This document shows, one piece after another, positions 760 to 7,025 of a DNA stretch of 22,549 nucleotides; within the stretch, counting starts at the first letter, position 1; every line of letters begins with the position of its first letter. Source of the stretch: a virus. Made by a program: the position numbers and the translations under genes. The stretch spans positions 1 to 22,549 of IMG/VR virus record IMGVR_UViG_3300008448_000719. The stretch is one strand, 5' to 3'. The notes under the pieces were generated by a model that searched no databases, was not told the origin of the DNA, and worked only from the letters and a program-made list of their open reading frames with translations.

Positions 760-2088
760 TTAGGTATTAGTTTGGGCTTTTTTTCTAAGTCGATATAGTC
801 TTTGTCTTTCTGCAGAGGTGAGTGGTTTCTTTTTGACTCTCGAGTCCTCCACTGGTATATTGGTGAATACTGTTGATCTATGAAGATTGAACAAATCCAT
901 TACTTCAAGAATCATTGTAGTGTCAAGAGCAAATATATTAACTGGTAGAGTATTAGAGGGATCTCTAAGGGCAGATCTCATAATCAATTGATAGGCAGTA
1001 TATCCACTAAATGCAAAAGCAAATCGACGGCAATCTTCTCGATCATCAAAGCCGCATCTTTGCCATAGAAAGTTTTTATAAACAGCATTAGGTTGAATTG
1101 CACTCATAAACGCATAATCTGTTCTATCCTTATAAGCATTAATTCCATGAGCATTGTGTGATAATTTGTCACCGTGAACAAACGCTGTTGTGCTATCATT
1201 GTTGCTGTTATAAATTAATCTACCAGATCTGTGTTGTTCACAGTAATCTCTAAATATACCTTCAATATCGGGATTAGCAGTTTTACAACCTTTGCTCCAA
1301 CTGAATTCTTCTGTTGGTATATGCCAATTAACCAGGACATCATGTGTTTGAAATTCATATTCAATTTCGTATGGGATCGCATTACGTTGCATCCAATAGC
1401 CCATAAAAGTTTTTTCAAATGCAGCAGCAGCAATCCAAACACTGCTCCAATTGTCTAAAATAGATTCAGACAATTCAAGACCGATTGTGCTGGTTTCGCT
1501 GGCACCAGTCATTAAATTATTACCAATTTCCCAAGTTGCCCATAAACGCCAATTAGGATTGGCAATCTTACGCCAACGTTCATTGTCAATAATATCAGGA
1601 GGAGTGCTTTCAACAACAGTTAATTCATAGAATTCTTGGAAGGTTGTTTTGGGTCTTGATTTTGGAACCAACGCTGGATTGAGCCAAGCAAATATTTCAC
1701 AAAAGTCAACCCATACTCTACCAGCACTGTCATAGGTTTTAAATGTAATCATACTGTATGGATCAAAGGCTTCGTCGATGATCAAATCGGTATTTGTTTT
1801 TTCAAAGTAATCAGTTGGAACCTGTAAGAATCCTTGATGTGTAAGACAAACTACAGGTGTATCAGCAAGTTGATATTGCTGTAATATTTTTTCTTTGTTA
1901 TCATCTCTATTGATAATTGTAATCTCATCCCAAGAGAAATGTTCTGCATATTCTTTTTGAAGATTAATGCTAGGAACAACTATCAGTGTTCTAATTCCTG
2001 ATTGAATATTGTTACGGATACGTGGAATGATTGTGTTGCGTGTTTTACCCACACCGCAACCGCGAGAATCTACTTTAATATAAGACAT
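760..2088 (-). CDS. Putative SF2 (DEAD-like) helicase or NTPase, 442 aa
   Basis: The N-terminus carries a Walker A motif (GCGVGKT, residues 10-16), a Ia-like segment (TLIVVPS), and a Walker B/DEAD-type box (DLIIDEAF, DEAF at 105-108). Near residues 365-378, AYQLIMRSALRD has the Q-x3-R-x3-R spacing of SF2 motif VI, preceded by YAFMSAIQP, which resembles motif V. This order fits a superfamily 2 helicase that unwinds or translocates on nucleic acid using ATP. The C-terminus is basic (ERQRLYRLRKKAQ) and may bind DNA or RNA. The gene lies outside the structural block and has its own terminator, late-type promoter and structured leader. The proximal AAAGGAG is seven bases before the ATG. I am sure of the NTPase motifs, less so of helicase activity. 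Confidence 0.65.
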   Translation of the reverse strand: MSYIKVDSRGCGVGKTRNTIIPRIRNNIQSGIRTLIVVPSINLQKEYAEHFSWDEITIINRDDNKEKILQQYQLADTPVVCLTHQGFLQVPTDYFEKTNTDLIIDEAFDPYSMITFKTYDSAGRVWVDFCEIFAWLNPALVPKSRPKTTFQEFYELTVVESTPPDIIDNERWRKIANPNWRLWATWEIGNNLMTGASETSTIGLELSESILDNWSSVWIAAAAFEKTFMGYWMQRNAIPYEIEYEFQTHDVLVNWHIPTEEFSWSKGCKTANPDIEGIFRDYCEQHRSGRLIYNSNNDSTTAFVHGDKLSHNAHGINAYKDRTDYAFMSAIQPNAVYKNFLWQRCGFDDREDCRRFAFAFSGYTAYQLIMRSALRDPSNTLPVNIFALDTTMILEVMDLFNLHRSTVFTNIPVEDSRVKKKPLTSAERQRLYRLRKKAQTNT

Positions 2089-2200
2089 TGTTTAACTCCT
2101 TTGTTCGACTCCTTAAACTCCTTATAGTTTTAAAAGTAGCAGTGGCCCTAAGGAGTTGAAATGGCCCAACAGTGGATCAGACTGTTGTTTTAACTGCTAC
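2089..2200 (-). promoter_or_regulatory. Structured leader with three SD sequences and an internal anti-SD
   Basis: The leader of the helicase-like gene begins at G2200 if the promoter works as in T4. It opens with GTAGCAGT (2200-2193), which pairs with ACTGCTAC (2143-2136), eight base pairs. Inside is a 7-bp hairpin, CAACAGT (2187-2181) with ACTGTTG (2173-2167), and a possible GGCC/GGCC stem (2166-2163 with 2147-2144). The loop of the latter holds AACTCCTTA (2157-2149). This is complementary to TAAGGAGTT (2124-2116), TAAGGAGT (2115-2108) and the start-proximal AAGGAGTT (2101-2094). Pairing from the enclosed loop to any of these makes a pseudoknot that hides a ribosome site. Function is inferred. 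Confidence 0.6.
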
Positions 2201-2213
2201 AATAGTATTTATA
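2201..2213 (-). promoter_or_regulatory. T4-type late promoter
   Basis: The minus strand reads TATAAATACTATT, containing the full TATAAATA octamer (2213-2206) that defines T4 late promoters. With T4 spacing (octamer at -13 to -6) the start falls on G2200, the first base of the leader's 5' stem. A strong terminator ends just upstream at 2246, as expected where a new transcription unit begins. T4 late promoters need the phage sigma factor gp55 and sliding clamp; no such gene is in this window. Confidence 0.65.
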
Positions 2214-2245
2214 CATTATATAATAAACCGGGGTCAAATGTCAAT

Positions 2246-2272
2246 AAAAAAATAGAGTCCCGAAGAACTCTA
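2246..2272 (-). terminator. Rho-independent terminator with UUCG loop
   Basis: On the minus strand TAGAGTTC (2272-2265), loop TTCG, GGACTCTA (2260-2253) forms an 8-bp stem with one G-U pair, closed by the stable C(UUCG)G tetraloop. Seven Ts follow at 2252-2246. It ends the late unit, and probably the candidate RNA, ahead of the helicase-like gene. Confidence 0.85.
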
Positions 2273-2367
2273 GTTTGAAGATTTATAATTGTTGAGAAGC
2301 CAGGTCATAGGAGTTGACGGAAACGGGTTATGACAGCAACAAGATCCACCGCCACCTGGCTTCTCAA
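2246..2367 (-). ncRNA. Candidate structured RNA or 3' UTR element, about 120 nt
   Basis: A perfect 14-bp inverted repeat, TTGAGAAGCCAGGT at 2292-2305 and its complement at 2354-2367, encloses 48 bases. A second 6-bp pair (2304-2309 with 2329-2334) stacks directly on it. The element starts one base after the stop codon of the four-cysteine gene and is followed by the UUCG terminator, so an RNA of about 120 nt with two hairpin domains would result. GATAAATA at 2377-2370 could be its own late promoter. It could equally be a 3' end protecting the long late mRNA, or a DNA site. No tRNA or known ribozyme core was found. Confidence 0.45.
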
Positions 2368-2368
2368 A

Positions 2369-2668
2369 TTATTTATCGGATCGCAAATAAACCCTACGAG
2401 AAATGGTAATTATTTCACCTGGGGTTAAACGTTCAAACTCACCGGTCTTGGGATTTTTATAACGTCTGCAAGTAATGCATTGAGTTCTCCAAAACACAAA
2501 AGGGCTTTGGCACAAGGTTGATTCCACACGTCTATCGCCTACTGTTCTATCACAGTCTTCACAGGGTCTGACCACAGGCTCAATGCGTTCAATTCCTGGT
2601 GCATCAGGTCTTTCGTGTGGGCTTTTTTTAAATTTTAATCTCGATAGTATTGGTTCAGGTATTTGCAT
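2369..2668 (-). CDS. Four-cysteine (zinc-ribbon-like) protein, 99 aa
   Basis: Two CxxC knuckles, CEDC (about residue 36) and CITC (about residue 64), are separated by 24 residues including WRTQ, a spacing typical of zinc ribbons. The second knuckle is followed by RRYKNPKTGEF. I recall similar short proteins in marine phages but no assigned function. The ATG at 2668 has no Shine-Dalgarno sequence. The upstream 12 bases are alternating TA, and a weak promoter-like pair (TTGGCA at 2701-2696, TATATA about 17 bases on) lies in the preceding gene, so its expression mode is unclear. The stop codon lies two bases from the inverted repeat of the candidate RNA. Confidence 0.7.
   Translation of the reverse strand: MQIPEPILSRLKFKKSPHERPDAPGIERIEPVVRPCEDCDRTVGDRRVESTLCQSPFVFWRTQCITCRRYKNPKTGEFERLTPGEIITISRRVYLRSDK
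2370..2377 (-). promoter_or_regulatory. Possible late promoter GATAAATA for the candidate RNA
   Basis: GATAAATA on the minus strand differs at one position from TATAAATA and overlaps the last codons and stop of the four-cysteine gene. T4 spacing gives a start at A2364, within the first strand of the 14-bp inverted repeat. Because the sequence also encodes Asp-Lys-stop, the match may be chance. Confidence 0.3.
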
Positions 2669-2920: not shown

Positions 2921-3253
2921 TTATGCCTGTCTGTTTTCTACATTAACTCTGAATGCTCTGCGATCAATGATTCCATCTGCGGTTGTGACCTTTGCAGTTA
3001 CAATATAAACTTTGTCTGCTTGACCGCCCGATAATTCTACATAGGTTAGAGTATCAGTAAACCCTGAACTTTCAATCTCAATTGGAGTTGGGTCATTGCG
3101 TCTTGCAGCAACTTCATATTCTACTGCATCAATAGTGTCAGAACCTTCCAGCCATGAACTCCAATCAAATGTGTAGGTCAGTTGTGCTTCGGGATCTTTT
3201 GAGATTTCCAATCCATAGTTTGTTTGGTTAAATCCACCTCTGTTAATAGCCAT
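2921..3253 (-). CDS. Small virion structural protein, fibre/tail adaptor-like, 110 aa
   Basis: The segment DPEAQLTYTFDWSSWLEGSD matches a phage family with the signature DP-x-A-x-L-x-Y-x-FDW-x-x-WL. The rest is a beta-rich, Ig-like fold with VELSGGQADKVYIVTAKVTT, where family members carry WLSGGTAG-x-x-Y. Members I recall are short virion proteins beside tail fibre genes, sometimes named fibre-tail adaptors. The gene follows the 838-aa fibre and may attach or cap it; that is inference from position. A good Shine-Dalgarno sequence (AAGGAA) lies within the end of the preceding gene, which stops three bases before this ATG, so translation is probably coupled. Confidence 0.75.
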   Translation of the reverse strand: MAINRGGFNQTNYGLEISKDPEAQLTYTFDWSSWLEGSDTIDAVEYEVAARRNDPTPIEIESSGFTDTLTYVELSGGQADKVYIVTAKVTTADGIIDRRAFRVNVENRQA

Positions 3254-5783: not shown

Positions 5784-7025
5784 TTAAGTATATGTAAATC
5801 CATAAGCGGTTAGTGTCGAACCTGTTAATGCTAATAATAGAAGACTATTATAAGTTCCATCTTTTTGACCAAGTGCAGCAGTAGTAGTAGCATTACTATG
5901 ACTAACAGTTTGTGCTGAACTCACTTGTAAATCGCTGAGTCCGTTCATTAAAATTCTATGAATATAGATAGTTGATGCGGTATGGTAGACTAAAAATTGA
6001 CCATTACCATGATATGATTCATTAGCAATATATGGCTTTGATGCTCCGGTTGGAAGTTGAATTGTGTAAATAGATCCTAATGAACAACTGGTATTTCCAC
6101 TATCTGGTTGGTAAGGTCTTAAATCAAGTTTGTAAGTAGCAGTATCATAATAACCTACTACTCCTATCCAATTGTTTTCATCTACACCGCTGTTGATCAA
6201 TCTACCTTCATATGCCAATGAATTGGTAATTTCAGTATATCCAAATATATTATTAACTACCTGAATGCTACCATTTTTGTAGATTACTAGAACATCTTTA
6301 TTAGTTGAACTTTGATCAGCACCGTATACCGAACTAATTGCACTAGTATCATCTAGCACAGTAGTAGTCATGTTATGCTGTGTTAATCTAACATTTGCAG
6401 TTGCAGTTGCATCTGCTGGAAAAGTAAAATAGTTATCGTTATCACCGGTTTGACCAAATACTTCAACATATGTGTTGGAATTAACAGTGTCATCTTGCCA
6501 AAGATAAAGACTGTTGGCATCACTTGTAGATCCTAACAAAACTTTATTTGATAAAGTTCCTGTTCTTGTTCCATTAGCAATACTTGTTGAAGTTACGTTT
6601 ATAGATCTATATCTAACTCCACTTCCGCCGTCAGCAACAAATACTCCACGACCGTTCCAGTTACCACTGATGTTATCGCCCCAGTTGGCAAGATCTGCCT
6701 TGCCATTTACTGTCATAGATGTTAGTGTTATTTCAGCACCAACAGTTGGATTGCTTGAAGTTCCGCCAGCACGAACGTTTCTCATTCTCCAATTGCTTGC
6801 TGTCCAATATGCTACACCAAATGGTTCTGGATTAAACTCAGACTTGCCAAAAGAAACTAAACTTGGATAAAATGTTCCAACAGTGCTTGAAACAGTAGCA
6901 GAACCTCTTGCAGTATATGTGTAACTTGACACAGACGAAGGTTCTATACCTTGTCCAGGAGTAGGTCCCGAATCAACTACTATTCGTTTGGTTAAACCAT
7001 TTAATCTAAAACTGCCTAGTGGCAT
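5784..7025 (-). CDS. Putative tail fibre or receptor-binding protein, 413 aa
   Basis: The product begins MPLGSFRLNGLTKRIVV and is beta-rich throughout, with many Thr, Ser, Asn and Gly. Several segments of the type YxEVFGxTGDNDN, KDVLVIYKNGSIQVV and NWIGVVGYYD look like blades or strands of a repeated sheet fold, possibly a beta-propeller. I recognise no catalytic motif. The gene sits between two fibre genes. The start at 7025 overlaps the previous stop as TAATG and has AAGGA nine bases upstream; an upstream TTG at 7055 lacks a ribosome site. Function as receptor-binding protein is inferred from position and composition. Confidence 0.65.
   Translation of the reverse strand: MPLGSFRLNGLTKRIVVDSGPTPGQGIEPSSVSSYTYTARGSATVSSTVGTFYPSLVSFGKSEFNPEPFGVAYWTASNWRMRNVRAGGTSSNPTVGAEITLTSMTVNGKADLANWGDNISGNWNGRGVFVADGGSGVRYRSINVTSTSIANGTRTGTLSNKVLLGSTSDANSLYLWQDDTVNSNTYVEVFGQTGDNDNYFTFPADATATANVRLTQHNMTTTVLDDTSAISSVYGADQSSTNKDVLVIYKNGSIQVVNNIFGYTEITNSLAYEGRLINSGVDENNWIGVVGYYDTATYKLDLRPYQPDSGNTSCSLGSIYTIQLPTGASKPYIANESYHGNGQFLVYHTASTIYIHRILMNGLSDLQVSSAQTVSHSNATTTAALGQKDGTYNSLLLLALTGSTLTAYGFTYT

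Follow-up and report, generated by a model that had tools for sequence, protein, structure and literature searches.

A late-promoter RNA domain ahead of a phage helicase-like gene is probably a divergent copy of a late structured RNA

A 22,549-nucleotide stretch of viral DNA (IMG/VR record IMGVR_UViG_3300008448_000719; hereafter, the window) carries, ahead of a helicase-like gene, a leader in which a folded domain with an anti-Shine-Dalgarno (anti-SD)-like loop precedes three Shine-Dalgarno (SD) sequences. Did this leader evolve as a switch for the gene that it precedes, or was the domain acquired from elsewhere? The sequence-only reading proposed a switch in which the loop AACUCCUUA forms a pseudoknot with the AAGGAGU repeats and hides the helicase ribosome-binding site until a protein, a ligand, or temperature opens it. 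When the window is read, all features of this leader fall on the minus strand:

2215-2244, minus strand: perfect sigma-70 promoter TTGACA-N18-TATAAT (12/12), overlapping the late-type promoter; not kept in the related contig L045
2206-2213, minus strand: late-type promoter TATAAATA of element B, read from sequence; the motif is mostly intergenic in related contigs and is kept in L045
2136-2200, minus strand: element B, comprising P1 of 8 bp (2200-2193/2143-2136), hairpin P2 (2187-2167), and P3 with a 15-nt loop (2166-2144)
2149-2157, minus strand: anti-SD-like loop AACTCCTTA, with TCAACTCCT in common with element A and the ACUCC motif of the family described below
2117-2123, minus strand: AAGGAGT copy 1, within a 9-nt complement of the AACTCCTTA loop
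2108-2114, minus strand: AAGGAGT copy 2, read from sequence
2095-2101, minus strand: AAGGAGT copy 3, the functional SD, 7 nt ahead of the ATG at 2088
760-2088, minus strand: helicase-like gene (phrog_2467, weak DEAD-box match); accessory, missing from L045 and the related contigs searched

P1 of element B forms through pairing of GTAGCAGT (2200-2193) with ACTGCTAC (2143-2136), and the 8-bp stem described earlier as starting at G2200 is present. P1 encloses a 7-bp hairpin, CAACAGT/ACTGTTG (2187-2181/2173-2167), and a GGCC/GGCC helix (2166-2163/2147-2144) that closes the 15-nt loop containing AACTCCTTA. The fold of this 65-nt domain beats 99.2% of dinucleotide shuffles (z -3.1), which agrees with the folded domain that had been proposed; the nested fold of the entire leader is not significant against shuffles (z -1.6, 6.8%). 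On the opposite, plus strand of element B, positions 2149-2190 read TAAGGAGTTGAA-ATG GCC CAA CAG TGG ATC AGA CTG TTG TTT TAA, a 10-codon open reading frame (ORF) with a good SD.

Five nucleotides separate TATAAATA (2213-2206) from GTAGCAGT. The T4 late promoter TATAAATA is gp55-dependent and placed at -13 to -6 (PMC1524935), and because this rule was applied here, +1 falls exactly at G2200. In a set of 25 contigs, made up of the window and 24 related phages, ATAAATA is intergenic at 108 of 131 sites, with 19 expected, and is depleted overall (131 versus 181 in shuffles). Control heptamers are less intergenically skewed, and the most skewed of them, TAAATAA, overlaps the motif. This distribution supports a T4-like late promoter ahead of the leader, as the sequence-only reading had it. 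The 8-nt motif, its -13/-6 distance to the stem base G2200, and the strong intergenic enrichment all resemble T4 late promoters (PMC1524935), whereas this phage is not T4-like: its capsid is of the HTVC112P type, and the nearest isolates by capsid, at 39-40% identity, infect Pelagibacter. The overlapping sigma-70 promoter had been left out of the earlier reading.

The three AAGGAGT copies that had been reported ahead of the ATG of the helicase-like gene (2088-2086) were found at 2123-2117, 2114-2108, and 2101-2095, and the reported complementarity to the loop is perfect over 8-9 nt for all of them. The predicted energies of the loop/SD duplexes range from -10.6 to -13.0 kcal/mol, a pseudoknot penalty not being included in these values. 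Among 396 SD-bearing ORFs of the 25 contigs, just 4 have an SD complement of at least 8 nt within 110 nt upstream; thus, such complementarity is uncommon. On modeled energies, the loop could therefore pair in cis with the SDs of the helicase gene, and since such pairing is energetically plausible and the complementarity uncommon, it may have some effect on the helicase in this genome. Copies 1 and 2 are too distant from the ATG at 2088 to serve it. The copies cannot be counted as independent, since copies 2 and 3 belong to a 13-nt tandem repeat of 85% identity. Repeated SDs also occur separately in an unrelated phage (L172, 9489-9521), where five tandem AAGGAGTTA-like repeats stand immediately before a gene start.

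As one of three possible triggers, the sequence-only reading had named binding of the downstream protein to its own leader, as in T4 gene 32. In the T4 operator, a pseudoknot nucleates binding of gp32 and the region of the ribosome-binding site consists of unstructured UUAAA repeats (PMC535899). The two leaders are alike in that each belongs to a phage and places a 5′ pseudoknot-type structure upstream of the ribosome-binding site of a replication-type gene (PMC535899). They differ in that the loop here would pair with the SDs, in that the domain of element B occurs without the helicase gene in L045, and in the protein itself, which is DEAD-helicase-like (phrog_2467) rather than a single-strand binding protein of the kind that regulates itself in T4. 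The helicase homologue search returned two weak phage hits and no homologue in the viral or genome contigs searched or in 21 related records, which leaves no second helicase leader for a covariation comparison. The leader DNA itself gave only short chance matches in phage records.

Another comparison comes from L045, a near-identical phage and the one other contig retrieved with a pattern from the loop region of element B. The alignment shows TGTATAAATACTATTGTAGCAG...CTGCTACTTTT to be identical; L045 carries TGTATAAATA...CTACTTTT as in the window, and nothing matches beyond CTACTTTT. The promoter and the 69-nt stem domain are unchanged, but both flanks differ. To the left, L045 has a 9-nt deletion in the spacer to TTGACA, substitutions, and a -10 element changed from TATAAT to TATCAT. 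The right flank is unrelated: it has neither the helicase nor any of the three SDs, and convergent genes face the element, one ORF ending inside element B. The unit kept intact is therefore the promoter plus the stem domain, not the stem domain plus the SDs. A switch acting in cis predicts that anti-SD and SDs are kept together with compensatory changes; in L045 the anti-SD stands without SDs, which argues against the proposed helicase switch. L045 is the sole independent context of element B that was found and is a close relative whose identity partly reflects recent ancestry, so it amounts to one strong comparison rather than many. A second pattern from the element B loop matched mostly the antisense of ordinary gene starts, and a bacterial MAG contig (L173) that matched a 26-base pattern was set aside because it has neither late promoter nor P1.

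Directly upstream of the leader, the window holds a second element and a terminator that the sequence-only reading had passed over:

2370-2377, minus strand: late-type promoter GATAAATA of element A, from sequence and family comparison
2292-2367, minus strand: element A RNA, with P1 of 14 bp (2367-2354/2305-2292) and a fold z of -4.1; its position after the late operon is conserved
2253-2272, minus strand: intrinsic terminator after element A, from terminator prediction

The late operon of related phages provides the context for element A. A conserved late protein (2921-3253 in the window) was used to gather 52 loci; in the region downstream of this gene, next to the late operon, most of these loci have NATAAATA followed by a long P1 starting at or near +1. 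The RNAs display the loops GCUGUCA and UAAUGCCAUU (or UUACUGCCAUUA), ACUCC(GUU) precedes the 3′ arm of P1, and a terminator often follows (11 of 25 loci by a strict rule, against 2% of random stretches, with several more just outside the rule). About 30 or more related contigs, some of which may be fragments or chimeras, carry one RNA of this kind following the late operon. Seed-and-search modeling was used because MAFFT alone misaligned P1 across members, and covariance models were built from 3 and then 11 members. The 3-member model (R1) found members outside its seed at E-values of 1.7e-11 to 2e-4. In the 11-member alignment, 16 of 18 pairs show compensatory changes, and 95% of cells pair, against 67% when shuffled and 34-51% when slid; building this alignment to fit the structure favors the pairing score, yet the margin is large. 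We relied on A9 alone because A11 probably places the group-1 members in the wrong register at P1. Rfam 15 returned nothing at gathering score for the window or seven further loci, in keeping with the earlier remark that the leader matches no known riboswitch class, and lax searches gave sub-threshold hits only, mostly to a terminator hairpin. By its covariation, the family qualifies as a conserved structured RNA absent from Rfam 15.

Element A was not included in the 11-member model and is its best hit in the whole 22.5-kb window, at 18.3 bits and a rough E-value of 0.023. It shows the position after the late operon, NATAAATA, P1, ACUCC, the GCUGUCA loop, and the terminator that characterize the family, and contains GCTGTCA at 2337-2331 and AACTCC at 2315-2310. 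The UAAUGCCAUU hairpin loop was not found in element A, whose predicted fold shows the GCUGUCA hairpin alone. Judged by these sequence features, element A is the orthologue of the late RNA family.

Several other putative late-type transcripts can be read from the sequences of these phages. L055 encodes on the minus strand (about 4700-4654), opposite to the usual one, a minimal late RNA of 47 nt with GATAAATA, P1, the loop UAAUGCCAUU, UUCCU, and a terminator. Predicted transcripts from late-type promoters at L046 (about 6525-6555), L023 (10857), and L030 (5652) start with GTAGGCAGTAAC, which is complementary to the GUUACUGCC loop, or else with the hairpin GTAGTTACTGACATTACTAC, which occurs directly after the major capsid gene. 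Just past that gene in L010, L014, and L016, the promoter of element B recurs, with TATAAATACTATT and then a short hairpin AGCAG..CTGCT. In L061, L046, L058, and similar loci, a hairpin with the loop UUCUGACA lies downstream of P1 and could pair with the GCUGUCA loop in a possible kissing interaction; several members have this UGUCA/UGACA loop-loop pairing, and L063 lacks it.

Does element B belong to this family? It has the NATAAATA promoter, a P1 that begins at +1 or close to it, the (G)TAGCAG 5′ end, and ACUCC upstream of the 3′ arm of P1, and it shares the 9-mer TCAACTCCT with element A. A stem of at least 8 bp starting 2-7 nt downstream is found at 23 of 130 ATAAATA sites, namely 19 family members, elements A and B, and 2 others. 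TAGCAG occurs within the first 15 nt in 8 of the 21 members listed, counting A and B, and at 2 of 110 other sites. The promoter and 5′ end of element B, searched against 2.9 million viral contigs, returned L146, which appears to be a further member and carries a terminator of its own. Other results count against kinship. The family model built without element B scores it at 10.5 bits (E=2.5), among chance hits and not significant. The GCUGUCA loop is missing from element B, only GCCAUU of the UAAUGCCAUU loop is present, and no terminator lies within 150 nt in the window or in L045. A stem with CTCC/TTCC, as in element B, arises in 1.5% of shuffles. Taking both sides together, we consider it fairly likely that element B is related to the late RNA family.

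These findings bear on how the leader is to be explained. The cis switch gains from the perfect match of the loop to all three SDs at favorable predicted energies, from the rarity of such upstream complementarity, and from an 11-nt linker and 15-nt loop that should be sterically workable. Against it stand the unchanged domain in L045 without SDs or helicase, the status of CUCC as a motif of the RNA family found next to the late operon, the inability of SD copies 1 and 2 to serve the ATG at 2088 and the tandem repeat holding copies 2 and 3, the absence of a homologous leader for covariation from the viral and genome contigs and the 21 related records, and the insignificant nested fold of the full leader. 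We therefore regard a switch of this kind as unlikely. That element B is an ordinary 5′-terminal structure, an mRNA stabilizer or spacer with no regulatory role and a coincidental anti-SD match, agrees with the finding that a stem closes at such a distance in about 5% of shuffles; against it, the fold of the domain is better than that of 99.2% of shuffles, and just 2 ATAAATA sites outside the family elements have such a stem, so these promoters do not generally come with one. This explanation seems rather improbable.

The plus strand could instead be the functional one, with the hairpin CAACAGT..ACTGTTG followed by TTTT (2167-2187) terminating convergent transcription and 2149-2190 encoding, behind its SD, the 10-codon ORF MAQQWIRLLF. 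A terminator-like call on the plus strand and the convergent ORF that ends inside element B in L045 fit this arrangement, but no plus-strand gene runs into element B in the window, and the promoter position and the family terminators all indicate the minus strand, making it very improbable. A broader proposal is that HTVC112P-related aquatic phages encode a late anti-initiation small RNA that acts in trans, with two copies here, one of them captured as a helicase leader and acting in cis as well. The order UGCCAUU...ACUCC in the family is the antisense of SD...AAUGGCA, which makes a trans-acting anti-initiation role our leading guess, from sequence, for the family. Within the same contig set, sequences that complement the UGCCAUU loop perfectly are mainly the element itself and scattered 9-10-mers, and no gene target is shared among the matches listed; the duplexes that A and B would form with all gene starts have energies within background. 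The first downstream genes often begin with AAUGGCA, but the variable base of the loop does not change consistently with the target, so we claim no target. The full proposal, with both copies and action in cis, is doubtful. C-rich anti-SD loops are known in bacterial trans-acting small RNAs such as the AbcR type of alphaproteobacteria. The phage RNAs resemble these in being short, structured, and endowed with an exposed CUCC; they differ in being phage-encoded, in their T4-type late promoter, in the additional invariant loops GCUGUCA and UAAUGCCAUU, and in having no Rfam match.

The explanation that we favor, as somewhat better than an even bet, is that element B is a divergent second copy of the late structured RNA. 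It shares the promoter, spacing, 5′ end, P1, and TCAACTCCT with the family RNA, and is therefore probably such a copy. Element B would consist of a late promoter and a P1-closed domain of 65-69 nt, copied from the RNA whose orthologue, element A, sits 90 nt upstream, the two sharing common descent; it would behave as a portable late-promoter/RNA module, transcribed late in infection. Because the accessory helicase-like gene lies directly downstream, element B would also form its 5′ leader. The CUCC segment would be an inherited family motif, not one made for the three helicase SDs. Indeed, the sequence-only reading took the anti-SD to be a control on the helicase, whereas CUCC is kept at the matching place in RNAs that adjoin late operons and do not precede a helicase gene. 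This segment may pair with SDs in trans, and as a by-product also in cis, and so dampen translation initiation.

The analysis points to a conserved family of structured RNAs that Rfam 15 does not include. It lies next to the late operon in uncultivated phages from lakes and the sea, which are not T4-like, and is driven by late promoters of the T4 type. For its three invariant loops, pairing is predicted with SDs and with AUGGC start sites. Element B suggests that an anti-SD adjoining a ribosome-binding site may come by inheritance instead of arising there as a local switch.
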